Part shown: positions 10,248-26,924 of the stretch, piece by piece
Numbering within the stretch: position 1 is the first letter of the stretch
Layout of the letters: each line of letters opens with the position of its first letter
Assembly: GCF_000238255.3 (NCBI RefSeq)
Contig: NZ_CP011039.1
Location: 359,001-423,000, forward strand
DNA from: Pseudoalteromonas spongiae UST010723-006
GTDB taxonomy: Bacteria; Pseudomonadota; Gammaproteobacteria; Enterobacterales; Alteromonadaceae
Length of the DNA stretch: 64,000 nucleotides
Direction: 5' to 3'
The notes under the pieces: generated by a model
The model's input: the letters and a program-made list of their open reading frames with translations, nothing else
Told to the model about the DNA's origin: nothing
The model's database searches: none
Translations under genes and position numbers: made by a program

Positions 10248-12899
10248 GTGCGTTATCTAAAGCTATTTCTTTGCTTGTTAGTCGTATCACTTAGTCAGCC
10301 GTCATATGCTATGACTCCGTCACCGCAGCAAATTGAGCAATTTAAAAAGCTGCCAAAATCGCAACAAAAAGCACTTGCTAAGCAGTATGGGATCGATTTA
10401 AAACAACTTGATAAATCAAGTAAAGAGGTCGAAGAAGCGCTGCAAGATGAAAGCTTGTTAGTACAACCTCGTTCTGAGGAAGAAGAAAAAACAGAGGAAG
10501 AAAAATTCAAGCCGCAAATGGAAGAATTAAAGCCATTTGGTTATGAGTTGTTTGCGGGTGAGCCGATGTCGTTTATGCCAAGTGAAAATGCGGCAATTCC
10601 TGATTCTTACATTGTAGGTCCTGGTGACGAATTTCAAATTAATTTTTATGGTAAAGAAAGTGATAGTTTTGAAGTAGAAGTCGACCGTGAAGGACGTCTA
10701 ACAATTCCAAAGCTTAGCCCTGTTAACGTAGCTGGCTTACAGTTCTCAGAAGTAAAGAATTTAGTAAAAGCTAAAATTGAACAAGAAATAATCGGTGTTC
10801 AAGCGTTTGTTTCAATGGGACGCTTACGCTCTATGCGTATATTAGTTCTAGGTGAAGCATACAAGCCTGGTGCGTACAGTGTAACGTCACTTGCATCAGT
10901 AACTCATGCATTATTTGTTAGTGGTGGTATTACGGAAATTGGTTCACTTCGTAATATTCAAGTGAAGCGCCGTGGTAAGGTTGTGGCAGCACTGGATTTA
11001 TATGATCTTCTTACTAAGGGGGATAGCTCAAACGATATCGTACTACAATCTGGCGATGTAGTTTTTATCCCATCAGTTGGTAAGCAAGTAACTGTTTCTG
11101 GTTTAGTAAAACGTCCCGCTATTTTTGAACTAAAACAAAACGAAACAGCAAAAGACTTAATTCGTTTAGCCGGTGGTTTTAAGGCTGAAGCATTTCCGCA
11201 AAAAACAGTCATCGAACGCTATGCAGGTAATAGTTTTAAAACTGTATTAACAAAGGATTTCTCAAACACTGAAATTAATTATCAACCGCATGATGGTGAT
11301 GTTATTAAAGTACAAGGCTCAAGTGAGCAATTAGAAAATGCTGTGACTATTATGGGAGCAGTTTCTCATCCTGGTAATTATCAATGGAAACAAGGTAACC
11401 GAATTTCTGACTTAATCATATCTTTGAAATCTGATGTTTTACCTATCGCTGATTTTGATTACTCGTTAATCGTAAGAGAGAAGAACATTCGTGGTGATAT
11501 CGAATTACTTCAATTCTCATTAGTTGATGCGTTACAGAATGACCAGAACAATTTTGAGTTAAATCCGCGTGATATTATTATTGTATTCAGTCGCTTTGAA
11601 GAAAAAGCCGAAGAAAAGCGGTTGTTAACTGAACTCGCTTTGAGTGAGAAAGAGATCGCGCATCAAGCAAAAGTAGAGCAATGGCAAAAATTCGAAAATC
11701 GCAAATTTTTGGAGTTTATTGGCGAAGAAACCGAAGAGCTTGAGGAAGAGGAAACAACGCAATTAGATAACTTAACTAAACTATTGACCGGCCAAACTGA
11801 AGAATTGGAAGACGATGAGTATTCAGTATTTAGTCGAAAGAAATTGCTCGCACCAGTCGTTTTAAAGCTACAAAAACAAGCGTCAGCATTTGAAGATACT
11901 GCTTTAATAGCTGTTAATGGCCGTGTTCGTTATCCAGGGGTTTACCCATTAGTATCGAACGCCTCAGTTAAACTTGCAGTAAATGCTGCAGGTGGCTTGC
12001 TTGAATCAGCATATATGCAAAATGCAGAGGTTACGCGTGTTGTTAAAGGCGAAAATACAAGTGTTGAGCACATCGCTGTTAATTTATCTGAAGCTATAGA
12101 GAAACCAGAAAGGTTCACATTACAAAGTAAAGATTCACTTAATATTTTCCCTACGCCAAATTGGTCAGAGGAAAGAACAGTTAGCCTATATGGAGAAGTG
12201 CGCTTCCCTGGTACATATTCAATAAAGCGCGGCGAAACACTAGAGAATGTATTGAAGCGAGCAGGTGGATTAACTGATTTTGCTGCTGAAAATGGTGCTA
12301 TCTTCACTCGTGAGTCAATACGTACAAAAGAGCGTGCTCAACTACAAAAATTATCAGATGACTTACGTCGTGAAATTGCATCAAAGAGTTTCTCTAACTC
12401 AGTTACGGATGCGTCTCTTAGTTATGATGATACCGATAAGTTATTAAAAGATCTTGCAAAAGTTCAAGCGTTAGGGCGTTTAGTTATTGATTTACCAAAA
12501 ATCCAATCTGGCATTGTGTCGCTAGAATTAGAAAAAGGTGATGCGTTATATATTCCAGCTAAACAAAGTACGGTAAGTGTGATTGGTGAAGTAAACGTGT
12601 CTACATCTCACTTATATAGCGATAATTTATCGGTTGATGATTATCTTGAGTATAGTGGTGGTTTAAAACAAAGAGCTGATGATGATCGTATTTATGTTAT
12701 AAAAGCCAATGGTTCGGTTTATATCCCTAATGGCTCGAGCTGGTTTGCGGTTAGTAATAATAAGAATAAACTAGAGCCAGGTGATACGATTGTTGTGCCA
12801 CTAGATGCGGAATACATGAATCAGTTAACCCTTTGGAGTACGGCATCTCAAATTGTTTATCAGTTAGGTCTTGCTGCGGCAGCTATCTCAGCATTATAA
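10248..12899 (+). CDS. Large Wza-like polysaccharide export protein with multiple SLBB domains
   Basis: Outer-membrane polysaccharide exporter of the OPX family. The GTG start at 10248 has AAAGGGA upstream. The signal peptide is MRYLKLFLCLLVVSLSQPSYA, with no lipobox cysteine. A poly-export domain begins near residue 115 (YIVGPGDEFQINFYG). Repeated SLBB domains follow (GEAYKPGAYSV, GLVKRPAIFEL, GAVSHPGNYQW, GRVRYPGVYPL, GEVRFPGTYSI), with an acidic and charged insert at about 455-530. The C-terminus is a hydrophobic helix (about 860-883), as in Wza. At 883 residues it is more than twice Wza (379), in the class of Vibrio WbfF-like proteins. It opens the run that leads into the secretion genes. 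Confidence 0.88.
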   Translation: MRYLKLFLCLLVVSLSQPSYAMTPSPQQIEQFKKLPKSQQKALAKQYGIDLKQLDKSSKEVEEALQDESLLVQPRSEEEEKTEEEKFKPQMEELKPFGYELFAGEPMSFMPSENAAIPDSYIVGPGDEFQINFYGKESDSFEVEVDREGRLTIPKLSPVNVAGLQFSEVKNLVKAKIEQEIIGVQAFVSMGRLRSMRILVLGEAYKPGAYSVTSLASVTHALFVSGGITEIGSLRNIQVKRRGKVVAALDLYDLLTKGDSSNDIVLQSGDVVFIPSVGKQVTVSGLVKRPAIFELKQNETAKDLIRLAGGFKAEAFPQKTVIERYAGNSFKTVLTKDFSNTEINYQPHDGDVIKVQGSSEQLENAVTIMGAVSHPGNYQWKQGNRISDLIISLKSDVLPIADFDYSLIVREKNIRGDIELLQFSLVDALQNDQNNFELNPRDIIIVFSRFEEKAEEKRLLTELALSEKEIAHQAKVEQWQKFENRKFLEFIGEETEELEEEETTQLDNLTKLLTGQTEELEDDEYSVFSRKKLLAPVVLKLQKQASAFEDTALIAVNGRVRYPGVYPLVSNASVKLAVNAAGGLLESAYMQNAEVTRVVKGENTSVEHIAVNLSEAIEKPERFTLQSKDSLNIFPTPNWSEERTVSLYGEVRFPGTYSIKRGETLENVLKRAGGLTDFAAENGAIFTRESIRTKERAQLQKLSDDLRREIASKSFSNSVTDASLSYDDTDKLLKDLAKVQALGRLVIDLPKIQSGIVSLELEKGDALYIPAKQSTVSVIGEVNVSTSHLYSDNLSVDDYLEYSGGLKQRADDDRIYVIKANGSVYIPNGSSWFAVSNNKNKLEPGDTIVVPLDAEYMNQLTLWSTASQIVYQLGLAAAAISAL

Positions 12900-12910
12900 C
12901 TTAAAAAGGG

Positions 12911-12927: not shown

Positions 12928-12952
12928 TTCTATTGGTTATCGGAGTTTATTC

Positions 12953-13990
12953 TTGAAAGCAATTAAGAAAATTGTGAAGCAAGCTATTTTGATAAATCAA
13001 AAATTGCTTTGGCCTTTGGCTTCAAAATCCCCCCTCTTATCTAGATTATATTATTGTTTTTTTGACTCAGCTTTTGGTTTTGAACAGCAAGCATTATTAA
13101 AAGCCAAAATTCAATATTTTAGTAATAAAGGTGTACAGAAAGAAACAAGTTCGCTACTTCGTCGAAATATTCATCGGTTGGAAAAAGGCTTAATTATGGA
13201 GCCTCGCCGTGAGATATTTGCACTTGAATATATAGCGGAGACAGTTGAAGCATATCTGGTAGCTTGCCAACGCAAAACGTTCTCAACAAGTGAATTAAAT
13301 TGGGCATATTCAGTCTTGTCTGAATACTTTGAAGTAGTTTCAGTAACGAACAAAATAGTCGCCAATGCTAGTTGCCGATTTAATTCTATTGAGAAACGAA
13401 ATAACGCTGTTTGTAAGCCATATACAAGCGAAAAGCGTCAGCATCACACTGTTGGTTATGAAGCATTTTTAAACCTTTCTAAAGCTCGTCGTTCCACTAG
13501 ATGGTTTCTAAATGCTTCAGTTGAACAAGAAAAATTAACAAAGATGGTTGCAATCGCCTCTCAAGCTCCTAGTGCGTGTAATCGACAACCGTTTGAGTTT
13601 TTAGTTATTGAGGGTGACAAATTTAGGAAGCAAGTTGCAAAGTTACCGGGGGGAACAGTTGGTTTTTCAGACAACATTCCCTGCTTAATTGCTGTTGTTG
13701 GTGATCAATCCTATTACCCAATGGATCGTGATCGACATGTTATTTACATTGACTCGGGATTAGCTAGCATGCAATTAATGCTCGCAGCTGAGACACTAGG
13801 ATTATCATCATGTGCAATTAATTGGCCTGAACTCGAAAAGTTGGACAAAAAAATCTGCAAATTACTGAAGCTTCCGCAATACAAACGTGTAGTTATGTTT
13901 ATTGCGGTAGGTTATGCAAAGCCTTCGGGTGGAATTCCGTTCTCAGAAAAGAAATCAGCAGAACACTTAATAAAATATATAAAGGAATAA
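12953..13990 (+). CDS. Nitroreductase-fold protein of a surface-polysaccharide type
   Basis: A 345-residue protein whose C-terminal half is a nitroreductase (FMN) domain. ARRSTRWF near residue 177 and ASQAPSACNRQPFEF are the classic flavin-binding motifs. The first 170 residues are a distinct helical region with a RRNIHRLEKGL motif that I associate with nitroreductases in exopolysaccharide loci. Its substrate is unknown. The start is TTG 12953 with GGAG 7 bases upstream. It is followed one base later by a polysaccharide pyruvyl transferase, a recurrent pairing that suggests a role in glycan modification rather than nitro-compound metabolism. Confidence 0.8.
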   Translation: MKAIKKIVKQAILINQKLLWPLASKSPLLSRLYYCFFDSAFGFEQQALLKAKIQYFSNKGVQKETSSLLRRNIHRLEKGLIMEPRREIFALEYIAETVEAYLVACQRKTFSTSELNWAYSVLSEYFEVVSVTNKIVANASCRFNSIEKRNNAVCKPYTSEKRQHHTVGYEAFLNLSKARRSTRWFLNASVEQEKLTKMVAIASQAPSACNRQPFEFLVIEGDKFRKQVAKLPGGTVGFSDNIPCLIAVVGDQSYYPMDRDRHVIYIDSGLASMQLMLAAETLGLSSCAINWPELEKLDKKICKLLKLPQYKRVVMFIAVGYAKPSGGIPFSEKKSAEHLIKYIKE

Positions 13991-13991: not shown

Positions 13992-15146
13992 TTGTTGTTA
14001 AATATTGAGATTAAAGGGGTTCAGTTCTCTAATAAAGGTGCTGAATTAATGTTAGAGGCAATATTACAGCAGCTCGATGTTCATCTTGGCGACTACCATC
14101 TAACACTTTCGCCAGGTCGTAATTTGCCGTACGTTAAACGAGCCAAGTTAGGGGCGTGGCAAAAGCTTAGCTTTCGACGTGGCAATTTAGATTTGACAGG
14201 TATTCTTGCAAAGTTACCAACAAAAATTCGTAATTTTCTGAAGCGCTATGGCATCGTAACAGAGGCCGATGTGGATGTTATTCTTAATGCCAGTGGTTTT
14301 GCCTATGGCGATCAGTGGCCAATGGCAGATCTGCGAAATACTGCTAAAGAAATTAAACGATTTAAAGCACTTGGCAAGCCTTATATTATATTACCTCAAG
14401 CATTAGGGCCTTTTCAGCGTGACGAGTTAAAAGAATTTGCTGAGGTGCTGATCAATGATACTGCCCTTACTTTTGCAAGAGACGATACTTCTTTTTCTGA
14501 ATGTGAAAAATTAAATAAAAGCAATAAGTTGTTTCAAAGCCCTGACTTTACAGCACTACTTGAAGTGCAACAATTTAATACAACAGAGCAGAAGACCGTT
14601 TGTTTAATTCCTAACAATAAAGTGGTATCTAAATTTAATCATGCGAATGCCGAACAGCAAAAGAATGCGTATTATGATTTTTGGATTGATACCTCAAATT
14701 TTTTTATCGATAACGGTTTTTTTGTCAAAGTACTAAACCATGAAGGCAAAGAAGATAAAGATATTTGCAACGCAATATTAGAAGCTGTCAACAATGAACA
14801 AATAGCTTTGATAGACGGTTTAAACTCAACCGAAATTAAAGGCCTAATAGGAAGTTGTGATGCTGTCGTAAGTAGTCGGTTTCATGGCTGTGTAAGCGCT
14901 CTTTGTCAGGGTGTTCCATGCTTGGCTACTAGTTGGAGTCATAAATACGAAATGCTGTATGGGGAATATGGGCTATCTGAAAATGTCATTGACTTCGGAC
15001 TTGAAAGACAAGAGTTAACAAATAAACTGAACCACTTTTTAAATGATTTGACTAATCAAACAAGTGTTTGTTTATTGCATGCAGAGCAAGTGAAAGAACA
15101 GAATAAAAAAATGTGGCAACAAGTTGTTGCAATCATCAAATCGTGA
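13992..15146 (+). CDS. Polysaccharide pyruvyl transferase family protein
   Basis: Members of this family (CsaB, WcaK, AmsJ) transfer a ketal pyruvate from phosphoenolpyruvate to a sugar of a lipid-linked glycan. The 384 residues show the N-terminal FSNKGAELML motif, the central stretch DVILNASGFAYGDQW, and the C-terminal SSRFHGCVSALCQGVPCLA, which is the most conserved part of the family. The start is TTG 13992 (tandem TTG codons) with AAGGA upstream. It is coupled to the nitroreductase gene and lies 61 bases before gspG. The acceptor glycan cannot be read from sequence. See findings for the S-layer anchoring idea. Confidence 0.85.
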   Translation: MLLNIEIKGVQFSNKGAELMLEAILQQLDVHLGDYHLTLSPGRNLPYVKRAKLGAWQKLSFRRGNLDLTGILAKLPTKIRNFLKRYGIVTEADVDVILNASGFAYGDQWPMADLRNTAKEIKRFKALGKPYIILPQALGPFQRDELKEFAEVLINDTALTFARDDTSFSECEKLNKSNKLFQSPDFTALLEVQQFNTTEQKTVCLIPNNKVVSKFNHANAEQQKNAYYDFWIDTSNFFIDNGFFVKVLNHEGKEDKDICNAILEAVNNEQIALIDGLNSTEIKGLIGSCDAVVSSRFHGCVSALCQGVPCLATSWSHKYEMLYGEYGLSENVIDFGLERQELTNKLNHFLNDLTNQTSVCLLHAEQVKEQNKKMWQQVVAIIKS

Positions 15147-15177
15147 TTTATCGACATAGGCTATGTGCCTTGATAAA
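15147..15177 (+). other. Intercistronic hairpin before gspG
   Basis: The outer stem TTTATC/GATAAA encloses the inner stem ACATA/TATGT, immediately after the pyruvyl transferase stop. There is no T-run. It could stabilise or process the downstream mRNA for secretion genes. Confidence 0.4.
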
Positions 15178-15207
15178 CTGCCAAGTCGAATTTATGGGAG
15201 TATTGAA

Positions 15208-15603
15208 ATGAAAAAAATGCGTGGTTTTAGCTTGATGGAGCTAATGATTGTTTTGATTATTTTGGGTTTACTAGGCTCTTTAGTTGCTCCAAAGTTATTT
15301 TCTAAAGTGGGCTCATCAAAGAAGAAAGCAGCTGTAGCTCAGATGCAAATGTTTGAGGCCGCAATAGATACTTATCGTTTAGATGTCGGTTCAATTCCTG
15401 CAAATTTAGAAGAATTACGTGCAAGTGCAAAAAGAGGATGGGACGGCCCTTATTTACCTAAAGCAATCCCAATGGACCCTTGGGGTAATCCTTATGTATA
15501 TGATGTACCAGGCTCAAATGGTAATCCCTATAGTATTAAAAGTTATGGTTTAGATGGGCAAGAAGGTGGAACTGACGAAAATGAGGATGTTATTCACCAA
15601 TGA
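15208..15603 (+). CDS. gspG: Major pseudopilin, GspG-like
   Basis: Main subunit of the periplasmic pseudopilus of a type II secretion-like machine. ATG 15208 gives a 131-residue prepilin with a short basic leader (MKKMRG), cut before FSLMELMIVLIILGLLGSL, with Glu at position 5 of the mature protein. The C-terminal calcium-site pattern of GspG is intact: DPWGNPYVYDVPG, SYGLDGQEGG and DENEDV. An upstream in-frame start at 15163 lacks a leader role and is rejected. Its stop overlaps the gspE start. Processing needs a prepilin peptidase (PilD/GspO), which is not in this window. Confidence 0.93.
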   Translation: MKKMRGFSLMELMIVLIILGLLGSLVAPKLFSKVGSSKKKAAVAQMQMFEAAIDTYRLDVGSIPANLEELRASAKRGWDGPYLPKAIPMDPWGNPYVYDVPGSNGNPYSIKSYGLDGQEGGTDENEDVIHQ

Positions 15604-17258
15604 TGAACTCAGTGGAAATTTTAATTGAGGATTTTTCAATTAGTTCGTCTGACATTGAAAAGGCGAAGTCCTACCAAAAGCGTTATCCAGGAAGACTAGA
15701 GCAAATTCTTGTTAGTATGGGAAGTTTAACAGAAGATGATTTATGTCCTTTTTATGCAAAACTTCTAAACTATCAGAAATTTGACGAGACGATTTGGGGT
15801 GATTGGACAATTCCGGATATTGAATTTTCGATACATGAGAAATTAAAAGAGCTTGATTGTGTATTGTTGTCGACACTTGAGAATAACTGGACCGTTGCCT
15901 GTAAAGATCCACTATCTTTATCCCTAATTAGCTTATTAAATGATTCGGCGAAAGAGGTTGAACTATTTGTAGCAACCGAAGCGCAGTTACAAAGATTCTT
16001 TTTCGAAATTCAAAATGCGTCAAACATTTCGCAAGAAGAGGAAGAGCTTAGTGGTGATGAAGAAGCGCGTCTTAGGGAGCTTGCATCTGAAGCGCCTACC
16101 GTTAATTTACTAAATTCACTAATTACAAAAGCCCTTGCTCGAAATGCCTCAGATATGCATTTAGAGCCTCATAAAGGTCGCTTGAGAGTAAGATACCGTA
16201 TAGATGGTGTATTGCATGAAGTTGAGTCACTGGCGCCAAAAATGCAACTACCGATCACGACACGTTTAAAAATCCTTTCGGGTATGGATATCGCGGAAAA
16301 GCGCCGTCCACAAGATGGTAAGATTGAGATGCGCGTTGCGAATCAAGAGCTTGATATACGCGTATCTGCTCTTCCTCTAAATGAAGGGGAAAGTGTTGTA
16401 CTTCGTTTTCTACGTAAAGACTCTATTCGGTACGATATGTCAGTTTTAGGGTTGTCAGCGGACACGCAGAAGTTGATTGGACAAGATTTGAAAAAGACGA
16501 CAGGTGTAATTTTACTTACCGGTCCTACAGGTTCAGGTAAAACCACAACCTTGTATACGTTTTTAAATGAACTTAACAATGAAGATGTTAAAATTATAAC
16601 TTTAGAAGACCCTGTTGAATATCAACTCGAGGGGGTAAACCAAGTTCAGGTGAATAGCGAAATTGGTTTTGATTTTGCTGCAGGGTTGCGCTCAATTGTT
16701 CGTCAAGACCCTGACATAATAATGGTTGGTGAAATTCGAGATAAAGAGACTGCGCAAATAGCACTTCAATCAGCATTGACTGGTCACCTTGTTTTTAGCA
16801 CTGTACATACTAATGATGCTGCAAGTGCGTACACGCGCTTATTAGACCTCGGAGTAGAAGAGTTTTTATTAAATGCAGCGCTTGTTTCAGTCGTTGCACA
16901 ACGTCTGGCAAGACGACTGTGCCCGCATTGTGCTGCACCTGATGATAATCAAACAGAACTAATGGAAAATTACCCTTTAGCTCAAGTAGCCTCAAATGCT
17001 GGCATTACAGAGCTAAATATTAAAAAGGCGATTGGGTGCGAGCATTGTAACAATACTGGATACAAAGGCCGTATTGCAATTAATGAATACCTTCGCTGTG
17101 ATGATGAAATTAAAGCAATTTCGAAAGATGAGCAGTTTATACCTAAAGCACAGGCTCATAACTCTCACTTGAAACGTAGGAATTTGCTTGAAGATGGTTT
17201 TTACAAAGTAGTGACTGGTGTGACGACAATTGACGAAGTCTTAAGGGTTGCAGGTTAA
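15600..17258 (+). CDS. gspE: GspE-like secretion ATPase
   Basis: Cytoplasmic hexameric ATPase that drives pseudopilus assembly. The 552 residues contain an N-terminal MshEN/N1E-like domain (about 1-140), Walker A GPTGSGKTTTLY near residue 307, the Asp-box region EDPVEYQLEGVNQVQV, Walker B with DIIMVGEIRD near 372, the His-box LTGHLVFSTVHTNDA, and a four-cysteine zinc site (CPHC near 440, CEHC near 480). The start overlaps gspG and the stop overlaps gspF, so translation is coupled. Confidence 0.96.
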   Translation: MMNSVEILIEDFSISSSDIEKAKSYQKRYPGRLEQILVSMGSLTEDDLCPFYAKLLNYQKFDETIWGDWTIPDIEFSIHEKLKELDCVLLSTLENNWTVACKDPLSLSLISLLNDSAKEVELFVATEAQLQRFFFEIQNASNISQEEEELSGDEEARLRELASEAPTVNLLNSLITKALARNASDMHLEPHKGRLRVRYRIDGVLHEVESLAPKMQLPITTRLKILSGMDIAEKRRPQDGKIEMRVANQELDIRVSALPLNEGESVVLRFLRKDSIRYDMSVLGLSADTQKLIGQDLKKTTGVILLTGPTGSGKTTTLYTFLNELNNEDVKIITLEDPVEYQLEGVNQVQVNSEIGFDFAAGLRSIVRQDPDIIMVGEIRDKETAQIALQSALTGHLVFSTVHTNDAASAYTRLLDLGVEEFLLNAALVSVVAQRLARRLCPHCAAPDDNQTELMENYPLAQVASNAGITELNIKKAIGCEHCNNTGYKGRIAINEYLRCDDEIKAISKDEQFIPKAQAHNSHLKRRNLLEDGFYKVVTGVTTIDEVLRVAG

Positions 17259-18457
17259 TGGAGTTTGATTACAGCGCGATAGATAAATCGGGAAGTCGTC
17301 ACCAAGGTGTTATTAGTGCAACGTCAAAGTTAGAAGCTCAAAAAAAATTAGCAAAAGATGGCCTTACACCAATTTCTATCAAAGAGGTCTCTGAAGGCTT
17401 ATCAATAGAGTCTCTTTTCGGTAACAAAGTATCTTTGGATCAACTTGAGTTTTTTACAAGTGAATTATCTTTGTTATTGGAAAGTGGTGTACGAGTGGAC
17501 AAAGGGATCGATATTATACGTCAATCTAATGTTCACCCAGCGCTTACTCGGCTATTGAATCAAATTGCTACATCACTCAAAAAAGGTACTTCTTTAAGTG
17601 AAGCGTTTGCTCAGCATGAGGAATTGTTTGGTCCACTGTATGTTTCTTTAATTCGCATTGGTGAGTCATCAGGCAACTTGGCTCAGGTTTTAGCAAGACT
17701 ATCAGCTGATTTAAAATTTCAAAAAGATCTTCGCTCTCAAATTGTGACTGCTCTCACGTATCCAAGCGTTATCTTCTTTGTCTGTATAATGGCTGTTTAT
17801 TTTGTGCTGACGTTTATTGTTCCAAAAATGTCAGGGATTTTCACAGATCTTGAGCAGGCACCTTGGTATACCCAAATGATCATTAACGTTAGTAACTTTT
17901 TTATTGATTATCAGCTTTTTATCGTAGGCGGAGTTGTAGCAAGTTTGATTGCTCTTGTTTACGGACTAAAAAAACCAGAGGTGAAAGAGTGGTTTTATTT
18001 AACGGGTAGTAAAATTCCTGGAGTGAAAAGCATAATTCTAACATCCGAGCGAATTCGTTTTTCTCAGTCTATGGCTATGATGTTGGAAGCAGGACTTCAA
18101 CTGGATGCTACATTATCTCTTTCGACTGGAACGCTTAAACATCCCGAATTAATTAGGGATGCACGGCTAGCGAGTAAGCAATTAAAATCAGGAAAACAGT
18201 TAAGCCAAGTGCTAGCTAAGACACGTATATTTTCAGACTTCTTTTTATCCATTATAAAAGTTGGTGAAGAAACGGGCAGGCTACCACGGGTTTTTTCAGA
18301 GGTCGCTAGTCGTTCACGTCAAGATTTGGAACAAGCCATTAAAAAGTTTACGACTTTGCTTGAGCCTTTGATGCTGATGTTCATGGGGGGCTTCGTTGGA
18401 GGGATAGTAATAACGATGTTAATGAGCATGGTATCAATAAACGATGTGGCATTTTAG
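17258..18457 (+). CDS. gspF: GspF-like inner-membrane platform protein
   Basis: Polytopic platform protein that couples the ATPase to pseudopilus assembly. The 399 residues contain two T2SSF cytoplasmic domains (FFTSELSLLLESGVRVDKGI and RFSQSMAMMLEAGLQLD), each followed by membrane segments (about 165-190, 218-240 and 370-395) and the family motif RIGESSGNL, repeated as KVGEETGRL. The start shares a base with the gspE stop. Confidence 0.96.
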   Translation: MEFDYSAIDKSGSRHQGVISATSKLEAQKKLAKDGLTPISIKEVSEGLSIESLFGNKVSLDQLEFFTSELSLLLESGVRVDKGIDIIRQSNVHPALTRLLNQIATSLKKGTSLSEAFAQHEELFGPLYVSLIRIGESSGNLAQVLARLSADLKFQKDLRSQIVTALTYPSVIFFVCIMAVYFVLTFIVPKMSGIFTDLEQAPWYTQMIINVSNFFIDYQLFIVGGVVASLIALVYGLKKPEVKEWFYLTGSKIPGVKSIILTSERIRFSQSMAMMLEAGLQLDATLSLSTGTLKHPELIRDARLASKQLKSGKQLSQVLAKTRIFSDFFLSIIKVGEETGRLPRVFSEVASRSRQDLEQAIKKFTTLLEPLMLMFMGGFVGGIVITMLMSMVSINDVAF

Positions 18458-19248: not shown

Positions 19249-19955
19249 AGCACAACAAAGGGTTTACATTAATTGAGTTAATGATAGCGAGTAGCTTACT
19301 GATGCTTGTTATGTACTCGGGGTATTTTGGTTATAGTTTGTATACTTCTAGTTGGCAAAAACGAACAGACTTATTTTGGCAGCAAACTCAAAAAGGCTTA
19401 GCATTTAATTCACTAGCACGTATGCTTGAGTCGATAAGTCCTTACGTGATCGAAAGCGACAATAATCAGCCTGCAATTTATTTTCACGCACAACGTGACT
19501 TTGCGATGTTTGTCACTGAATCTCCTATTTTTTCGGATACAAAATCGGTCGTAATGCTTTCATTTGAAACAATAAACGGGGTGCTCGCATTAACGTACAG
19601 AGAGAAAAATTTAGCTAACCAATTATTGTTAAAACAGTCCGATACTATGGATTGGCAACATAGGGTAATTCTTTTAGACAATTTAAAAAGTGGTCAATTT
19701 AAATACTTTGGTTTTGATTTACTTAGCAAAGCGGCAGGCTACTATGATGACCCACTAGCTGATGCAACAAATTTAGAAAACACAAAAGTATCACCCGAAT
19801 GGTATGAATCTCACAAACTAGAAGTTGTTCGTACACTTCCTTTAAAGCTAGCAGTCATCATTGAACATGACGAAGGTGTACTTTCGAATTTTGAGATTGC
19901 TTTGCCTGAACACGCTCATCGTAAATTGTTTAGGTATTTGCGAGAGGATGCATGA
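19242..19955 (+). CDS. gspJ: Minor pseudopilin, GspJ-like
   Basis: A 237-residue prepilin with leader MVKHNKG, cut before FTLIELMIASSLLMLVMYSGY. The size and the position after GspI fit GspJ. In known systems H, I, J and K form the tip complex that primes the pseudopilus. It overlaps gspI by 7 bases and gspK by 4. Confidence 0.82.
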   Translation: MVKHNKGFTLIELMIASSLLMLVMYSGYFGYSLYTSSWQKRTDLFWQQTQKGLAFNSLARMLESISPYVIESDNNQPAIYFHAQRDFAMFVTESPIFSDTKSVVMLSFETINGVLALTYREKNLANQLLLKQSDTMDWQHRVILLDNLKSGQFKYFGFDLLSKAAGYYDDPLADATNLENTKVSPEWYESHKLEVVRTLPLKLAVIIEHDEGVLSNFEIALPEHAHRKLFRYLREDA

Positions 19956-20845
19956 TGAGACGGAATTGCGGAATCGCGTTAGTTCAAGTGCTAATAATTT
20001 CAGTTATTTTAATTATGCTCAGCGTGTTTATTGGACAAACACTTAAGTCACAAATTAATGTTGCAAGAGATGTTCAAAAAGTACATCAGCTGAGACTAAA
20101 ATTAGAGACGGCAGAAGCTTTGGTTTTTAACGCGTTGTTATCTAACTTTAACTATCAAAACAAGAAAAGTGACAATGACGTTGCAAGAATATGGAATTTT
20201 TATTTTGAGCCGTTTGAAGTTGAGGATATAACTATTCAAATTCAAGATTTAAGCGGTTTATATAGTCTAAATACATTTGACAGAAATCATTTAAAAAAAC
20301 TATTTCAAGAGTTTGGAGTTGCTGAAAATAGAATAAATATATTTATTGACAGCCTGTTAGATTGGACAGATAAAGATGATAGCCTCAAGCCTTATGGCGC
20401 TGAAAAAGAATACTATCAAGGCTTATCAAAAGTAGGCCCTAGGAATGGTTACCTGCAATCAATTAATGAACTTCAGCATGTTAGAGAGAGTGATATTTTA
20501 ACTGTTGAACAGTGGAATAAGTATTTTACCGTGGAACCAACGCCTTTTTTTAACCCAATGAATTCTCCCGAAGCCATTATTAAAGCGATTGCTTATGACG
20601 AAAGTGGAGCCAACCGAATTATTAAACAAAGGCGAGAAGGAAATTTAAGTAGGCGACAATTTGAGGAAATGTCTGGGATAGAGCAAGAGGGTTTTGTTTC
20701 ATTCGCGAATGGATTTAAATTCAAAGTTGCGTTAACGGCAAGTGAAAATGGAATTATGTTACAAAAAAGCTTTATAATCGAACTCAAACGTCGTGATATT
20801 AATAACCCCGTAACGATTACCGATTTAGTGTGGAATAAGTTGTGA
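19952..20845 (+). CDS. gspK: Minor pseudopilin, GspK-like
   Basis: A 297-residue protein with leader MMRRNCG, cut before IALVQVLIISVILIMLSVF. It lacks Glu at position 5 (Gln-Val there), the known peculiarity of GspK at the pilus tip. The large alpha-rich domain includes LSGLYSLNTFD, a DSLLDWTDKDD motif and a calcium-type acidic segment, all characteristic of T2SSK. It overlaps gspJ and gspL by four bases each. Confidence 0.87.
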   Translation: MMRRNCGIALVQVLIISVILIMLSVFIGQTLKSQINVARDVQKVHQLRLKLETAEALVFNALLSNFNYQNKKSDNDVARIWNFYFEPFEVEDITIQIQDLSGLYSLNTFDRNHLKKLFQEFGVAENRINIFIDSLLDWTDKDDSLKPYGAEKEYYQGLSKVGPRNGYLQSINELQHVRESDILTVEQWNKYFTVEPTPFFNPMNSPEAIIKAIAYDESGANRIIKQRREGNLSRRQFEEMSGIEQEGFVSFANGFKFKVALTASENGIMLQKSFIIELKRRDINNPVTITDLVWNKL

Positions 20846-21927
20846 ATATAGGTGCAGTGATTAAATCAGAGGCTATTAAAAAGCGCCTTGTTAAATCGAT
20901 AGGTTACTATGCGGGTAGTATAGCGCCTTTATCTGATCAAGTTGATTTAAATAGTTTTAAACCAAAGCTGGTTATTGTTAGCAATAAGTACTGTGATGTT
21001 AAAACGATTACTTACCCAGCGATAGGTAAGAAAGAGTTGCTTGATATTTTAAAGTTAGATCGTGAAAGTTCCGCGCATGCAGTTACTCATGTCGTAATGA
21101 AAAACAGTGAGCAGGAAGGTTTTGATGTGCGCCGGACTGAGATTAGGGTAATTGACAGCGAAGTTCAAAACTCCGCATTGTGTCTAATTCCCGAATCTGA
21201 AATATTGGCAAACGCGGATACAAAAGGTTTGTTCAACTTAGCCACGCCTGTTGGTGAGATGTTTTTCTTGAATGTAGACCGTCCATTTTATTCTTATAAA
21301 ACGAGATTAATGTCTACACCTGAGTTATTTTGTTTGAGTGTTGGCGTAAATAATGAGGATGTACAAACAAACATTGCAGGTTGTGACTACTTAAAGTTCA
21401 TATTTGATACATTACTTACAATACCATTCGATAAATTAGTAAAAGTATGTCACTTCGAAGTTAAAAAACATATACCCCTTACACAATTACATTCGTTGTA
21501 TATAGCACCATTGGCAGCAGTTACGCTGTTGTATAGTGTAATTTACGGCTACACCCTGTTTAAAGTTGACCAGTTAGAGCAACACGTTAAAAGTTATGGT
21601 GACGATGTTTCTTCATTACTAAACCGAAAAGCAGTTATTGACTTTAACAGCGAATTTATTGATGTAGTCAACAAGCGCATTGTTTCTGCTCCGTTAGTTC
21701 ATTCTGACTGGAATTTAGTGCATGAAGCAATTAATGCAGGAATGGATTTACAGCAATTTTCAAAGAGAGATGGCATTGTTACGCTGCGTGGTATGTCTGA
21801 TAATGCTTCGAATGTATTAAAGCATGTGAGCAGTTTAGAGTATGTTGAAAGCGCAGAGTTTTTTGGTACTGTACGTAAGTCGCGTCAACGAGATTATAGT
21901 GTGATTCATGTTAGGTTAAAAAGCTAA
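20842..21927 (+). CDS. gspL: GspL/MshI-like assembly protein
   Basis: A 361-residue bitopic protein. The cytoplasmic region (1 to about 210) should have the actin-like GspL/PilM-type fold that recruits the ATPase. One membrane helix at about 219-236 (YIAPLAAVTLLYSVIYGYTL) precedes a coiled coil and a small periplasmic ferredoxin-like domain. The start is GTG 20842, overlapping gspK. Sequence conservation is weak; order, topology and length carry the call. Confidence 0.75.
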   Translation: MNIGAVIKSEAIKKRLVKSIGYYAGSIAPLSDQVDLNSFKPKLVIVSNKYCDVKTITYPAIGKKELLDILKLDRESSAHAVTHVVMKNSEQEGFDVRRTEIRVIDSEVQNSALCLIPESEILANADTKGLFNLATPVGEMFFLNVDRPFYSYKTRLMSTPELFCLSVGVNNEDVQTNIAGCDYLKFIFDTLLTIPFDKLVKVCHFEVKKHIPLTQLHSLYIAPLAAVTLLYSVIYGYTLFKVDQLEQHVKSYGDDVSSLLNRKAVIDFNSEFIDVVNKRIVSAPLVHSDWNLVHEAINAGMDLQQFSKRDGIVTLRGMSDNASNVLKHVSSLEYVESAEFFGTVRKSRQRDYSVIHVRLKS

Positions 21928-21928
21928 A

Positions 21929-22486
21929 ATGCAAGAAGTATTAAAAAAATATAAACATTATCTCATTATTTTGGTTGCGCTACTTGTTGCAAATGAAATT
22001 ACAGTTCCATTGTATGAAGCGATAACAGTTGAGCAACAGAAATTATTTCTTACAACTAAGCGCGTAGCAAAAACAGAGGCTGTGATTGCTCAAACGAATG
22101 CAATCGAGATGAATGAAGTTAAGGTGATGGTAGCAAAGAAAAAGGCCGATTCGCTTTTCTTTAAAGCTGAATCAGAATCGCAATTAAAGCTGCTGGCACA
22201 GGAAAAAATTGAATCAATACTAGCGCAATCTGGATGTGAGTTTAGTGCCATTACCTGGAAAGGTAATCAACCACTGAATGAAGAGATTAGTGAATGGCGA
22301 ATTGAAGTACGATACAACGCTAATCCGAGTTGTATCATTAGTGCTACCAGAAATATTGAAGCAGCTACACCTGTTATTCGTATTGGTGATTATATCTACG
22401 GCGGTAAAAAAATAAACTCGCGACCAAATGAACAGTTAAGAGGTACTCTAGAATTGAAACTGTGGCAGTCAAAGGTAGTTTTATGA
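21929..22486 (+). CDS. gspM: GspM/MshJ/PilO-like assembly protein
   Basis: A 185-residue bitopic inner-membrane protein with a short cytoplasmic tail, one helix at about 11-28 (YLIILVALLVANEITVPL), a coiled coil to about 85, and a small alpha/beta periplasmic domain. This is the GspM/PilO architecture that pairs with GspL. It starts one base after the gspL stop and its TGA overlaps the next ATG. Confidence 0.72.
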   Translation: MQEVLKKYKHYLIILVALLVANEITVPLYEAITVEQQKLFLTTKRVAKTEAVIAQTNAIEMNEVKVMVAKKKADSLFFKAESESQLKLLAQEKIESILAQSGCEFSAITWKGNQPLNEEISEWRIEVRYNANPSCIISATRNIEAATPVIRIGDYIYGGKKINSRPNEQLRGTLELKLWQSKVVL

Positions 22487-22971
22487 AGATCTTTATTCTG
22501 ATAGTGACTCTTGTATCTTGTTATATCGCAATTAATGATATTTTGCCTGAAGATGCTGCTAAAGAAGAAGTAAGGGAGGTGTCGATAGACACTGAACTTG
22601 CTAAGTTAGCATCTTTGCCAGAAGAGTTAGCGCTAGAAAGGTCTTGGAAAGAGGCTAAAAAAAAGTTCGATAAAGAGCTTGAAGAAAGAAGAAACCCCAA
22701 ACCGCAAGCTAAACCAACAGTCAGTAAGCCTAAAACCAAGGTGTCGACTTTAAATATAAATGGTATTGAATATAGTTTACTCGCGGTGGTAAATGCAGGT
22801 ATGACTCCTTATATACTACTAAAATCTCCGAGTCATCCACTTAAAAAGGTTGAAATTAATATGGATATTGCACCAAGTGTAAAATTAAAAGAAGTGCATA
22901 ATGACCGTATTTTTGTTGCAGTGGGAGAGAGTGTGAAAGAATTTAAATTATTTGAGCGTAAAAAATCATGA
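22483..22971 (+). CDS. Small GspC/MshK/PilP-like alignment protein
   Basis: A 162-residue protein starting at ATG 22483, coupled to the preceding stop. It has an N-terminal hydrophobic helix (FILIVTLVSCYIAI), a charged coiled-coil region, a Pro/Lys-rich linker near residue 70-90 and a small beta domain (INGIEYSLLAVVNAGMTPYILLK). That layout matches the homology-region part of GspC or MshK/PilP, which bridges the inner-membrane platform and the secretin. It is far shorter than classical GspC (about 270-300) and has no PDZ domain. Confidence 0.65.
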   Translation: MKIFILIVTLVSCYIAINDILPEDAAKEEVREVSIDTELAKLASLPEELALERSWKEAKKKFDKELEERRNPKPQAKPTVSKPKTKVSTLNINGIEYSLLAVVNAGMTPYILLKSPSHPLKKVEINMDIAPSVKLKEVHNDRIFVAVGESVKEFKLFERKKS

Positions 22972-25031
22972 ATCCAGTTTCAGTCAAAAAAAGCTTAGTA
23001 TCACTAGCTGTGTTATTTGCATTGTCAGGGTGTGCATTAACCAATCCTAATGCAGGGTTACAGCAGCAGAAAACAGAAATTGGAAAATCGTATCTAGCGT
23101 CAAACGATACTGAAAATACAGAAGCAGTCATTACAACAGAGCCTACTGAGCGAACAGGTGGTACTGAGGTGCTTTATAGACTAAGCGACAATGATAAAGA
23201 TGTTACGCTTGGTGTTGATTTGGCAGCTCGGTTTGGCAATAAAAAACAATTTCATATTTCGGCAAATGCACTACCTGTGAACGACTTTATAAACTATGTT
23301 TTTGGCGAAACATTAAACGTCTCTTATTTAGTTGATCCACAGGTGAAAGTTCTAACTTCACCCGTCACATTAAATTTAAATGAACAAGTTACCGGTGCAA
23401 AACTGTTCTCCTTGGCACAGCAGGTGTTATCGCAAAATAAAATAGATGTTTCATTTAGTGATGGTATTTATTACTTACATATGTTGACCGATGGTGCGCA
23501 AAGTAGTATCGCTTTTGGTTTTGGTAGAACGCAAAGTAGTGTTCCTAATGTATCAGGCCAAGTCATGCAGTTAGCTAAGTTAGATTTTGATTTGAGCACG
23601 TCGTTACGAAGGGTGATTCAAGATTTGACAGGGGTTGAAGTGGGACATGACCGAGGTCAGTCACTTGTTACGTTAAAAGGTGATAAAGAGAAAGTACAAC
23701 GTGCGCTATCCTTGTTGGTTATGTTTGATAGTTCTATGATCTACAATAAATCTTCGGCGTTATTGACATTCCAATACATTGACAGCAGAACGTTCATTGA
23801 ACAAGCGAAAGCGATTTTATCTGAAGAAGGTATAGTTGTTGGTGAGGGGTTGCGAGCAAGCAAAAATGTAGCGTTTATCCCGATAGAGCATCTAGGCAAA
23901 GTTGCTGTATTTGCAAATTCTGACGAGATTATTGATAGAGTTGCTTATTGGAGAAATACCTTAGACAAACCCGCAACAGGAACTGATCAGAGCTTCTTTA
24001 TCTATCATCCTAAGTTTGCGCGAGCGATGGATTTGGGTGCCAGTTTAGCCCCCTTAATCGGTGGCTCTGCACCGGCGGGCGCTGCAAGAGAGGAAAGGAC
24101 ATCTGCGAGCGACAGAAGTCAAGGTACCTCTTCAAACAAGGCAAAGGCAGCGAGTAAAACCACATCAATAGAAGGTGATAATATCCGCTTGGTAGTTGAT
24201 GATAGAACGAATTCCTTAATTTTTTATGGTGAAGGCCGCTTTTATCAAGAGTTGCAACCAATCATCAAACAGCTAGATATCATGCCAAAGCAAGTAATGC
24301 TTGAAGTAATTATTGCTGAGGTAAAGTTAACAGGGAGCTTTTCAAAAGGCGTTGAGTATGCCATTAAAAATGGTTCTTCCGGTAATAAAACAAACACAGT
24401 TTCCTTTAGTGGAGAAAGCGGTTTTTCCTATTCAATAGTTGGCTTAAACGGTAACTTTTCTGTTAACCTCAATCAAAAAGATGGGTTAGTTAATGTTTTA
24501 TCTCGTCCAACATTGTTAGTTCGTGACGGAGTATCAGCAAATATTAGTGTTGGTGACAATATTCCGACTATTGGCAGTACTACTAGTGACCCGATTAGTG
24601 GTGATAGAGAAACAACACAAATAGAATATAGAAAAACAGGTGTCGATTTAACGGTAGTACCAACGGTAAATGCGCAAGGTACGATTATTATGGAGATTCA
24701 GCAAGATATCTCGAATGAGTCACCTGATGGTTCAAGTATAAACGGAAGCCCTTCTATTTTTGAACGAACTATTTCAACAGAGGTTGTGGCTGGTGACGGT
24801 CAAACCGTGATACTTGGTGGCTTAATTAGCGAGAATAACTCCACGAATTCGAATTCAGTTCCTTTACTGGGTAGTATTCCTGTTTTAGGGCACTTATTTA
24901 GAACAGACTCAGACAATCAAGATAAAACAGAGTTGGTTGTTTTAGTTACACCTAAAATCGTGCATAACCTAGAAGATTGGAATCGCGTAAAGTCATCTTT
25001 CTTGAGTGGTTTAGAGAATGTTAGCTTTTAA
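22968..25031 (+). CDS. gspD: Secretin lipoprotein, GspD/MshL-like
   Basis: Outer-membrane secretin forming the exit pore. The 687 residues begin with a lipoprotein signal; the lipobox ALSGC puts the lipidated Cys at about 22. An STN/N0-like domain (about 90-150) is followed by N-domains, a Ser/Ala-rich variable segment (about 370-400), and the C-terminal secretin domain from about 430. The signature end VPLLGSIPVLGHLFR leads into TELVVLVTPKIV. An own lipid anchor is typical of MshL-type secretins and may remove the need for a pilotin. The ATG overlaps the preceding gene by four bases. Confidence 0.94.
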   Translation: MNPVSVKKSLVSLAVLFALSGCALTNPNAGLQQQKTEIGKSYLASNDTENTEAVITTEPTERTGGTEVLYRLSDNDKDVTLGVDLAARFGNKKQFHISANALPVNDFINYVFGETLNVSYLVDPQVKVLTSPVTLNLNEQVTGAKLFSLAQQVLSQNKIDVSFSDGIYYLHMLTDGAQSSIAFGFGRTQSSVPNVSGQVMQLAKLDFDLSTSLRRVIQDLTGVEVGHDRGQSLVTLKGDKEKVQRALSLLVMFDSSMIYNKSSALLTFQYIDSRTFIEQAKAILSEEGIVVGEGLRASKNVAFIPIEHLGKVAVFANSDEIIDRVAYWRNTLDKPATGTDQSFFIYHPKFARAMDLGASLAPLIGGSAPAGAAREERTSASDRSQGTSSNKAKAASKTTSIEGDNIRLVVDDRTNSLIFYGEGRFYQELQPIIKQLDIMPKQVMLEVIIAEVKLTGSFSKGVEYAIKNGSSGNKTNTVSFSGESGFSYSIVGLNGNFSVNLNQKDGLVNVLSRPTLLVRDGVSANISVGDNIPTIGSTTSDPISGDRETTQIEYRKTGVDLTVVPTVNAQGTIIMEIQQDISNESPDGSSINGSPSIFERTISTEVVAGDGQTVILGGLISENNSTNSNSVPLLGSIPVLGHLFRTDSDNQDKTELVVLVTPKIVHNLEDWNRVKSSFLSGLENVSF

Positions 25032-25289: not shown

Positions 25290-25318
25290 TTGACAATATG
25301 GGTTTGAGCCCTTAAATT
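25290..25318 (+). promoter_or_regulatory. Promoter of the S-layer candidate gene
   Basis: A consensus -35 TTGACA at 25290-25295 and TAAATT at 25313-25318 are separated by exactly 17 bases. Predicted transcription starts at about 25324-25326, inside the 5' arm of the first leader hairpin. A perfect -35 fits a very highly expressed gene. Confidence 0.7.
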
Positions 25319-25320
25319 GC

Positions 25321-25351
25321 AAGGATTCGGTAAACTCCTTGCCGAATCCTT
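25321..25351 (+). promoter_or_regulatory. 5'-terminal leader hairpin 1
   Basis: A perfect 10-bp stem AAGGATTCGG (25321-25330) with CCGAATCCTT (25342-25351) and an 11-base loop. It lies at or next to the predicted 5' end of the transcript, where stem-loops are known to protect mRNAs such as E. coli ompA from RNase E entry. It could also be a terminator-like relic, but only two T follow. Confidence 0.7.
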
Positions 25352-25360
25352 AAAGTTCTT

Positions 25361-25386
25361 GGTTTAGAGCAACTCCGCTTTAGACC
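25361..25386 (+). promoter_or_regulatory. Leader hairpin 2
   Basis: GGTTTAGAGC (25361-25370) pairs with GCTTTAGACC (25377-25386) over 10 bp with two G-U wobbles. The loop is AACTCC. Confidence 0.6.
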
Positions 25387-25400
25387 AGTTTCATGAAACT
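25387..25400 (+). promoter_or_regulatory. Leader palindrome 3 next to the ribosome site
   Basis: A perfect 14-base palindrome, AGTTTC-AT-GAAACT, ends one base before the GGAG ribosome site (25402-25405). As RNA it would need a larger loop to fold; as DNA it could be a protein site. Its position allows control of translation start. Confidence 0.5.
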
Positions 25401-25415
25401 TGGAGAATGGAAATA

Positions 25416-26924
25416 ATGAAATTTTACAAAAAGGCGTTACTAGCTACTGCTATCGCTACTTCATTCGGCGCTAGCGCTGCATCAATCAGCACTTCTAACG
25501 TGCTAAAACTTTCTAAAGAAGGTATTGCTGCTGGTGTTGATGCTGGTAACCAACAGTTATCTTTCGACGTTATCGTTGATAAAAACCACCCTGCGGCTTC
25601 ACGTATTACGTTAACTTTTGATGACGCTGTACGTTTAGGTGATCTGTCAGCTTGTACTGGTGATGTTGTAACAGACCCAGCTTCAGGTAATGGTGTATGT
25701 GGTGCAGCAGCTCCGGCGACTTCTGTAGATGATGCGGTTGTTACTTTCGACTACGGTACAGGTTCATTTACGTTTGATAACGTATCTGTTACTAAGTATG
25801 ATGAGAAAAAAGGCACTGTAGACTCTATCTCTTTCGACGTTAACTTAGGTAACCCGTTAATCGCTGACTCTGCATTCCGCGTTATCATCGGTTCAAACGA
25901 CGACAAAACAACTCCTCCGCTAACTGGTAGCTCACTTGCTGTTGTTCTTGGTGAAACTTACGTAAACTACTCTTCAGTGCAAGCTGACCTTGAAACGCCA
26001 ATCGAAACTGGTATGGGTAAAATTGCAGAAGAAACTACTCAGTTTGGTTTTGAAGTAAGCACTAAGTTCGACGGTATTATCGACCGTGATGATCTTACTA
26101 CTTTCGTAGATGGTTCAACTGATAAGTCAGTATGGACGTTCACTAACGATGAAACTCTTGGCGCAGCTCTTCTTGTTACTGATGCAGATATTGTTTACTC
26201 AGGTAACTTTAAAACAGTTGTTAACTCTGAGCTAACAGCGTCTACTCTTAAAGTTAATACTGGTACTCCTGCTTCTGCTCCTGCAACAGTTGTAATGAGC
26301 ACAGGCACTACTCCAGTAGCTGTTGGCGTTAAGCACGACTTATTTGGTGCACTTGTTGCTGGTAAAACAGCTTACACAGGTACAATCGACTTTACACGTG
26401 TTGCTGCTTCTACAGACGCAATTCCTGTAACTACTCCAACTGAAGTTTCTGTTACTATCGATGCTTCTAACTACAAAGTTAAAGCAGCTGACTTCCAAGA
26501 CGTTATCTTCTCAGAAGTTGCAGGTGGTGAGTGGAAGATTGATGCAACTATCATCAACGTTCCTTACTACGTAGTTAACCACGCTGATACTCAGTCTAAC
26601 ATCCACATGGCTAACGAAGCTGACGAAGTTGCAGATGTTATCATCTCAGCTATCGATGACATGGGTAACGAGTACGGTCCAGTTGACCTAGGTATCGACC
26701 TAGCTGGTAACACTGTAACTAAAGTTAAGCCTAAGCAAATCAAAGAAGCACTAGGTATCGACGACACTACAGTTCTTAAGTTAAGCGTTACTTTCAACAT
26801 TGATGCATACGCTCAAGACGTTGCTGCATACGCGTTCTCGCAAAACAGCCAAGGTCGTTCTGAAGTTTCTAACTCTCAGTACAAAGTTGACGGTAAAATC
26901 GTTAAGACTAAATCAGCACTTTAA
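25416..26924 (+). CDS. Probable S-layer protein (Slr4-like), secreted
   Basis: A 502-residue exported protein. ATG 25416 gives signal peptide MKFYKKALLATAIATSFGASA, cut before ASIS. The mature part is acidic, rich in Thr, Val, Asp and Ala, and beta-rich without enzymatic motifs. Its only two cysteines lie close together (about residues 62 and 76), a likely disulfide loop. Codon use differs sharply from its neighbours: AAC, TTC, TAC, ATC, GGT and CGT dominate, the pattern of very highly expressed genes. It has its own promoter, structured leader and strong terminator, directly downstream of a secretion operon. All this fits the Slr4 S-layer family described in Pseudoalteromonas tunicata. I could not align it, so family membership is inference; another abundant matrix protein is the main alternative. 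Confidence 0.65.
   Translation: MKFYKKALLATAIATSFGASAASISTSNVLKLSKEGIAAGVDAGNQQLSFDVIVDKNHPAASRITLTFDDAVRLGDLSACTGDVVTDPASGNGVCGAAAPATSVDDAVVTFDYGTGSFTFDNVSVTKYDEKKGTVDSISFDVNLGNPLIADSAFRVIIGSNDDKTTPPLTGSSLAVVLGETYVNYSSVQADLETPIETGMGKIAEETTQFGFEVSTKFDGIIDRDDLTTFVDGSTDKSVWTFTNDETLGAALLVTDADIVYSGNFKTVVNSELTASTLKVNTGTPASAPATVVMSTGTTPVAVGVKHDLFGALVAGKTAYTGTIDFTRVAASTDAIPVTTPTEVSVTIDASNYKVKAADFQDVIFSEVAGGEWKIDATIINVPYYVVNHADTQSNIHMANEADEVADVIISAIDDMGNEYGPVDLGIDLAGNTVTKVKPKQIKEALGIDDTTVLKLSVTFNIDAYAQDVAAYAFSQNSQGRSEVSNSQYKVDGKIVKTKSAL

Follow-up and report, generated by a model that had tools for sequence, protein, structure and literature searches.

The S-layer protein Slr4 was found in Pseudoalteromonas tunicata by proteomics, transmission electron microscopy and gene knockout, and it forms a lattice on the cell surface (Ali and colleagues, PMC7821379). 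A dedicated type II secretion system (T2SS) for Slr4 was suggested in 2020 on the basis of gene order (PMC7821379) and the suggestion was repeated by AnnoView (PMC11094555). Here we analyze a stretch of 64,000 nucleotides from Pseudoalteromonas spongiae UST010723-006 (contig NZ_CP011039.1 of assembly GCF_000238255.3, positions 359,001-423,000; hereafter the window), in which a T2SS gene cluster with the order gspG-E-F-H-I-J-K-L-M-C-D (15163-25031) is followed, 375 bases further, by an Slr4-family gene, all on the plus strand. The central idea of the initial annotation of this stretch, a dedicated S-layer T2SS module inferred from adjacency, has already been proposed for P. tunicata (PMC7821379). 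To this idea we add a two-way linkage of machine and substrate, the separate clade of the machine, an ASRT-like domain shared by the substrates, a lipidated secretin and a leader element upstream of slr4.

The closest described system is that of P. tunicata, where the Slr4-family gene also lies directly downstream of a T2SS cluster (PMC7821379). Its GspE (P0137) is 76% identical to that of the window and nothing fundamental differs; the window represents another member of the same type, with a predicted lattice-forming Slr4. The main text of PMC7821379 does not contain the terms "Wza", "polysaccharide export" or "C-terminal". In Aeromonas salmonicida, T2SS genes are likewise followed by an S-layer gene, and the S-layer T2SS together with vapA is inserted in the O-antigen cluster, flanked by wzm and wzt (PMC4483657). 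VapA-type loci show the gene order E-F-G, both in A. salmonicida (PMC4483657) and in our VapA-type reference, Motilimonas pumila (L173), where the gene after the T2SS encodes a protein of the VapA family (684.5 bits, cut-off 200); the Slr4-type order is G-E-F. By its description, the Paracidovorax S-layer gene npdA resembles the window in adjoining a gsp cluster, gsp1 (PMC10765051).

Linkage of the Slr4-type machine to its S-layer gene

We compared draws of 295 genomes from the family, 70 from the genus and 394 from the order; the genomes within them are related, so that counts are not independent. By Pfam, Slr4 is present in 70 of the 295 family genomes, and 67 of these 70 also carry the machine. 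The 67 comprise 59 genomes with a complete locus (all of gspG, E, F, H, I, J, K, L, M and D plus slr4, one locus per genome), the window, three loci lacking only gspG, two split at contig ends (G101 and G076), and G196 and G239, whose machine has a second arrangement. One of the loci without gspG lies at a contig start (L052), and in the other two none was found by profile (L058 and L060). The initial annotation had proposed gene order as a check: order and strand of machine and slr4 agree in all 59 complete loci, with GspC recognized in 52. From the 69 Slr4-positive family genomes besides the window's own, 73 loci were fetched. Median pairwise identity over 73 loci is higher for GspE (59%), GspG (59%) and GspD (39%) than for GspL, GspM, GspC and the S-layer protein (17-24%).

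The reverse question, whether genomes with the machine always carry the substrate, was addressed with a GspL profile (A1) built from 58 members of the Slr4-type machine. Counted at E 1e-15 or better, 78 of the 295 family genomes match this profile, 69 strongly (E 6e-31 or better) and nine more weakly (E 3e-16 to 7e-26). All 78 have a gene of the Slr4 superfamily in the locus, with two cases interrupted by contig ends and one gene present as a fragment. Sixty-five of the 69 strong genomes are Slr4-positive by Pfam, and of the other four, G106 has a fragment of Slr4 where its contig ends, G014 has a divergent Slr4, and G083 and G282 have genes of a second type, termed type B below, at the gspD end of the machine. 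In all nine genomes with weaker matches, a type B S-layer-like gene lies upstream of gspG. Matches below the threshold were left out, among them one in G206 (3e-13, on another contig); those weaker than 1e-12 are mostly about 200 residues long and, in our reading, look like PilN.

Within the genus, the 19 Slr4-positive genomes are exactly the 19 with a strong GspL match, none of the other 51 having one, and the gene order is the same in all 19 Slr4 loci. Nine further genus genomes carry machines of type B or type C, each with a substrate candidate (9/9). These counts, from the computation that the initial annotation had proposed, support its inference of a dedicated route. In the order draw, Slr4 occurs in 18 genomes, GspL (E 1e-40 or better) in 19 and both in 17, a count that rests mostly on coordinates because only three of these loci were newly fetched. 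The two with GspL and no Slr4, G083 (L121) and G673 (L172), carry type B genes. Some 9 kb separate gspL from slr4 in G425, where the strands are opposite, and in G495 they are on different contigs. A scan of named genomes found five relatives with Slr4 (loci L176-L180) and none with GspL.

The order-conserved machine is also set apart in a GspE tree. We sampled the window, 22 random type A rows, ten type B, two type C and one intermediate, together with 14 VapA-type, 14 general, eight canonical and three other rows; the L113 row was removed after the first tree for its very long branch. Among the resulting 74 rows, the 36 Slr4-linked ones form one group with a Shimodaira-Hasegawa-like approximate likelihood ratio test (SH-aLRT) support of 100 (94 before L113 was removed). 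The window GspE falls outside the clade of the 14 VapA-type rows (support 100), and the eight canonical rows also form one group. By this tree, the Slr4-linked machine is a clade of its own, apart from canonical and VapA-type systems. A tree with the Slr4 and VapA machines as sisters was not the best one, though it was not rejected in the approximately unbiased test (p-AU 0.08). The genome also holds a separate canonical gsp set (L111), whose GspE is 41% identical to that of the window.

Using a loose pattern, we found a lipobox in all 99 Slr4-type secretins scored and none in the single canonical GspD of the same genome; the pattern also occurs in the VapA-type example and in one of four other secretins of this genome. 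The Hxc T2SS of Pseudomonas aeruginosa, a system of another genus with another substrate, has in HxcQ a liposecretin, likewise with the lipobox on the secretin itself. A lipidated secretin of this kind may need no pilotin.

Substrate types and their common C-terminal domain

The substrate genes found at these machines fall into type A, the Slr4 of Pfam (84 sequences, median 466 residues), type B (18 sequences, median 592 residues) and type C (two sequences, about 700 residues). Scans of L121, L125, L138 and L139, all of type B or C, gave no convincing Pfam or NCBIfam match. Two type B proteins, those of G196 and G239, pass the Slr4 Pfam cut-off weakly, which makes type B a distant branch. The best profile alignments between types, A-B (probability 98, E 7e-14), B-C (89) and A-C (82), cover only the last ~115 residues. 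An intermediate, L123 (G014), aligns with type A over 290 columns and with type C over 380, suggesting that types A and C may share more than the C-terminal domain. The VapA-family protein has no match to the Slr4 types (one sequence, hhalign probability 0.3 or lower).

In an alignment of the 104 C-terminal domains, one arginine is invariant in the 102 that have a residue at its position, the two type C sequences having a gap. A search of 109 relatives with the domain profile matched 30 genomes with one protein each, and every one of the 27 matching genus genomes has the machine. One more genome of the genus with the machine, G255, the 28th, already contributes to the domain alignment and seems not to have been drawn.

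Three observations stand beside these results. Weak domain matches in other families (G391:C6:15785-16123, E 5e-7; G366:C136:611-802, E 4e-5) may be distant members. L138 (G348, 2745-4745) and L139 (G327, 3122-5383) encode secreted proteins of ~660-735 residues after gspD that share the C-terminal domain and are a candidate third S-layer type. In type B loci (L124-L132, L140-L145 and L172), a companion gene of ~270 codons adjoins the S-layer gene, and the two companions scanned are DsbA/G-like thioredoxins (PF13462).

Because the full Slr4 model is poor (mean predicted local distance difference test score 54.7), the fold was assessed on an isolated model of the C-terminal domain of the window protein. 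This model is predicted to be an ASRT/TM1070-like beta-sandwich, with carbohydrate-binding modules as the next-best matches; structural matches of the N-terminal domain are generic Ig-like folds. The ASRT/TM1070 (ASRAH) superfamily has been argued to bind sugars (PMC2739507), and the Slr4 domain resembles it in the predicted beta-sandwich. Of two residues compared, a tryptophan at the start of strand 1 is present in most of types A and C and absent from type B (80/84 in type A, 0/18 in type B, 2/2 in type C), and an asparagine at the end of strand 2 is present in most members of each type (78/84, 16/18 and 2/2). Among the 25 of 41 Pfam families listed for the C-terminal domain of 64 members, ASRT does not occur. 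Among the open-access papers searched we found none pairing ASRAH with an S-layer and none naming PF19526, and a search combining S-layer, type II secretion, C-terminal domain and Gammaproteobacteria gave one paper, by its title unrelated.

Gene layout, setting and leader of slr4

The features of the window are collected in Table 1. GspD, GspE, GspF, GspG and GspK all score above their Pfam cut-offs; for the NCBIfam equivalogs this holds for GspG and not for GspE, GspF, GspD or GspK. No Pfam family matches GspL or GspM significantly, and the match of GspC is weak. The window Slr4 covers positions 12-367 of the 370 in the PF19526 profile and has no NCBIfam hit. In our reading gspG likely starts near 15208, and we read the slr4 start as the ATG listed in Table 1, whose spacing from the GGAG is better than that of the listed open reading frame start.

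Table 1. Features of the window, with the evidence for each assignment
Feature	Position	Strand	Evidence
SLBB/Poly_export polysaccharide exporter, 883 residues	10248-12899	+	PF02563, PF10531
Nitroreductase-family protein, accessory	12953-13990	+	PF00881; in 14/59 complete loci
Polysaccharide pyruvyl transferase, accessory	13992-15146	+	PF04230; in 8/59 complete loci
gspG, major pseudopilin	15163-15603	+	TIGR01710 127 bits, cut-off 88.85
gspE, ATPase	15600-17258	+	PF00437 425.7 bits; Slr4-machine group of GspE tree, SH-aLRT 100
gspF, inner-membrane platform	17258-18457	+	PF00482 178.2 bits
gspH-position minor pseudopilin	18444-18854	+	N_methyl PF07963; order kept in 59/59
gspI-position minor pseudopilin, TTG start uncertain	18823-19248	+	N_methyl; position
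gspJ-position minor pseudopilin	19242-19955	+	N_methyl; position
gspK	19952-20845	+	PF21687 48.4 bits, cut-off 26.2
gspL-position protein, marker for profile A1	20842-21927	+	Position; PilN domain in 19/58 members
gspM-position protein	21929-22486	+	Position; T2SSM_b in 9/40 members
gspC-position protein, 169 residues	22462-22971	+	Position; PF11356 E 0.01, below cut-off; T2SSC in 2/41 members
gspD secretin with lipobox	22968-25031	+	PF00263 157.3 bits
Promoter-like TTGACA-17-TAAATT	25290-25318	+	Consensus scan only, not above chance
Leader stem-loop	25360-25387	+	Per-sequence shuffles across 67 leaders
12-base palindrome GTTTCATGAAAC adjoining ribosome-binding site	25388-25399	+	Core in 67/84 type A leaders
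slr4, S-layer protein (listed open reading frame start 25407)	25416-26924	+	PF19526 81.8 bits, cut-off 25
Conserved C-terminal domain of Slr4, ASRT-like predicted fold	26529-26888	+	Profile alignments, structure model

The initial annotation had described one run of exporter, pyruvyl transferase, secretion machine and S-layer gene; each of these lies where, and on the strand on which, it had been placed, and a nitroreductase gene left out of its title lies among them. Its head-to-tail arrangement holds, with overlaps at nine of the ten machine junctions, while overlaps of four bases occur at four of the ten and one junction is a 1-base gap. Its "complete" machine runs from gspG to gspD, with GspL, GspM and GspC assigned mainly by position; no prepilin peptidase lies in the cluster (0.37-0.39 Mb of C1), and the one copy found is elsewhere in the genome, at 2.29 Mb of C1. 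Many T2SS share a single prepilin peptidase, and its absence from a cluster does not exclude membership of the family. The claim of very high slr4 expression finds its support in codon usage: measured against the genome's own ribosomal genes, its codon adaptation index of 0.80 is the highest among the 49 window open reading frames of 150 codons or more (next 0.61, median 0.435, machine genes 0.36-0.46). A separate slr4 promoter is plausible, but promoter-like sites around slr4 are no commoner than in shuffled sequence (41 versus 50.0, standard deviation 6.5).

Two further details were seen in the window. Residues 6-51 of GspE (15615-15752) match the MshE-type motif for cyclic di-GMP binding weakly (30.6 bits, cut-off 38), and the motif appears degenerate or divergent in our reading. 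Directly after slr4 (26988-27530) lies a gene for a 180-residue protein with a likely signal peptide and no significant family match, which is found in six of the 59 complete family loci and in all five named loci L176-L180.

Beyond 27.5 kb the window holds many polysaccharide genes, a flippase-family protein among them; a scan of eight window proteins identified a sugar transferase, glycosyltransferases, an O-antigen-ligase-like protein, a sugar aminotransferase and a sugar-nucleotide dehydrogenase. Where Slr4 is present, the module frequently stands between the exporter (39/59 complete loci), with or without a WecA-like gene (32/59), and the next genes. Like the Aeromonas A-layer genes, the module has a polysaccharide locus as its setting, and two S-layer T2SS clades inside glycan loci would fit a glycan-anchored coat. 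The window's pyruvyl transferase scores below the cut-off of the model for CsaB, the pyruvyl transferase of S-layer anchor glycan (TIGR03609 62.7 bits, cut-off 213.1). In L168/L169 (G351), a distance of 17 kb, with other genes between, separates the end of the exporter from gspL, compared with 8 kb in the window, indicating that exporter and module are separable; G327 and G348 of the genus have no exporter in view.

The slr4 leader (25321-25406 in the window) carries a 12-base palindrome of the form N-TTTCATGAAA-N' just before the ribosome-binding site in 67 of the 84 type A leaders. Its outer pair is Watson-Crick in 67/67 (46 GC, 18 AT and 3 TA), and the 10-base core has 74 occurrences in 2.45 Mb of fetched and partly overlapping loci, and 67 of the occurrences are these leaders. 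The 17 type A leaders that lack the palindrome comprise four copies away from a machine and 13 machine-linked ones, several of these second tandem copies; type B and C leaders have none (0/20). Among all 104 leaders, two (L058 and L068) were cut at a wrong start codon.

Immediately upstream of the palindrome lies a stem-loop of variable sequence, with a median z of -2.84, 51 of 67 leaders in the lowest 5% of their own shuffles, and a 3' arm within five bases of the palindrome in 62 of 67. A simpler stem scan gave a weaker signal, with eight or more pairs in 33 of 64 leaders versus 16% of shuffles. RNAalifold found no consensus structure in an ungapped alignment of 50 leaders, so that the stem-loop is supported by per-sequence shuffles and not by covariation. 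Rfam gave no convincing leader match (best E 0.27), and the open-access papers searched included none on an S-layer untranslated leader with mRNA stability. The element may influence slr4 output through its transcript; it is also possible that it is a protein-binding DNA site.

Weighing the explanations

Taken as a whole, the locus is probably best explained as a second, specialized T2SS for the neighboring S-layer protein, coupled to a step that anchors that protein to surface glycan; within this explanation, a dedicated export route for Slr4 is very probable. In the mechanism we propose, Slr4 would be made in bulk and use Sec to cross the inner membrane, the pseudopilins would be processed by a shared prepilin peptidase whose gene lies outside the cluster, and the G-E-F-H-I-J-K-L-M-C-D machine with its lipidated secretin would push Slr4 through the outer membrane. 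Outside the cell Slr4 would assemble, and its ASRT-like C-terminal domain would most likely fix the lattice to a glycan of the surface, probably a product of the polysaccharide locus around the module. The S-layer protein encoded alongside would be the machine's main, perhaps only, substrate.

Several observations weigh against this explanation. Slr4 hits without an adjoining machine occur in G158 (partial) and G206 (below cut-off), the locus of G081 is broken, one weak Slr4 hit in the order draw (G568) has no GspL match, and some wider-family genomes carry extra Slr4 copies, four of them second copies away from the machine (L064, L067, L095 and L104). Co-occurrence is not independent across related genomes, a canonical T2SS in the same genome could export Slr4, and the cited passages of PMC7821379 and PMC11094555 report no machine mutant or export experiment. 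For the domain, the ASRT match is structural, at 10-13% identity, and comes from an alignment of six; type B proteins lack the hallmark tryptophan (0/18), a further difference from ASRT/TM1070; and a search of the domain profile against the PDB gave no ASRT protein among five matches at E 1 or better, the best match being a galactosidase/fucosidase domain (E 0.007). As a separate observation, in L094 (G081, 14994-17044) the intervening genes are missing and the 5' part of gspF overlaps the 3' end region of slr4, through either a natural deletion or an assembly error.

These points leave room for other readings of the same genes. The canonical T2SS might export Slr4 and the neighboring cluster something else, and the presence of a canonical gsp set in this genome and of Pfam-type GspK in 293 of 295 family genomes among the matches listed would allow it. 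Pfam GspK is a weak marker for the Slr4-type machine, however, and while GspK-type T2SS are nearly universal, Slr4 in the genus tracks the Slr4-type machine (19/19 versus 0/51 by strong GspL match), making canonical export very unlikely. That T2SS and slr4 travel together merely as neighbors in a variable polysaccharide locus is consistent with the variation of the other genes there between species; we find it scarcely credible, since the machine genes remain one clade across genera while the neighbors change, and machine and S-layer gene stay linked even in loci that have the S-layer gene at the opposite end. The initial annotation had favored a larger unit, in which the whole run from the exporter and pyruvyl transferase onward is one self-contained system for S-layer export and anchoring. 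Pyruvylated glycans do anchor Gram-positive S-layers, and the exporter accompanies many of the complete loci. Yet of the 70 genus genomes 68 have the exporter, and no more than 19 of these have Slr4 by Pfam; at ten Slr4-free genus sites that we fetched, no machine gene follows it (10/10) and the second gene after it is a sugar or polysaccharide gene (10/10). The pyruvyl transferase, rare and sometimes downstream of slr4, the prepilin peptidase encoded elsewhere and the distant exporter of G351 also speak against self-containment, and a single system of this extent is improbable. We reject exporter and pyruvyl transferase as fixed parts, given their frequencies and the ten Slr4-free sites.

The remaining alternative concerns the C-terminal domain, which could be a recognition signal read by the T2SS in place of a glycan anchor, the two roles not being exclusive. 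The domain is common to all three substrate types and, in the matched genus genomes, is found only where the machine is, as a signal would be. Against a signal, the superfamily whose fold it is predicted to adopt has been argued to bind sugars, the next-best matches are carbohydrate-binding modules, and the domain is missing from VapA, the substrate of the other S-layer T2SS. We consider the signal rather unlikely. The anchor is in our estimate evenly balanced between right and wrong. More tentatively, and with somewhat more doubt than confidence, we propose that these S-layer proteins are modular, joining varied lattice-forming bodies to a fixed ASRT-superfamily C-terminal domain that would bind surface polysaccharide and may make the fourfold contact of a square lattice. 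Machine, coat and glycan genes would then form one evolving surface module, with output tuned by the new leader element of variable stem-loop and 12-base palindrome.

The export and attachment of Gram-negative S-layers is settled for few systems. Here, reciprocal co-occurrence turns "one machine, one substrate" into a strong and testable claim for widespread marine bacteria, and use of the machine as a probe led to two S-layer-like gene types mostly missed by the Pfam Slr4 model. The shared ASRT-like domain would be a candidate anchor for S-layers of the Slr4 type, and its sugar ligand might be sought in the neighboring polysaccharide locus. A T2SS with a single abundant substrate would, if true, be a clean system for the study of cargo recognition by T2SS.

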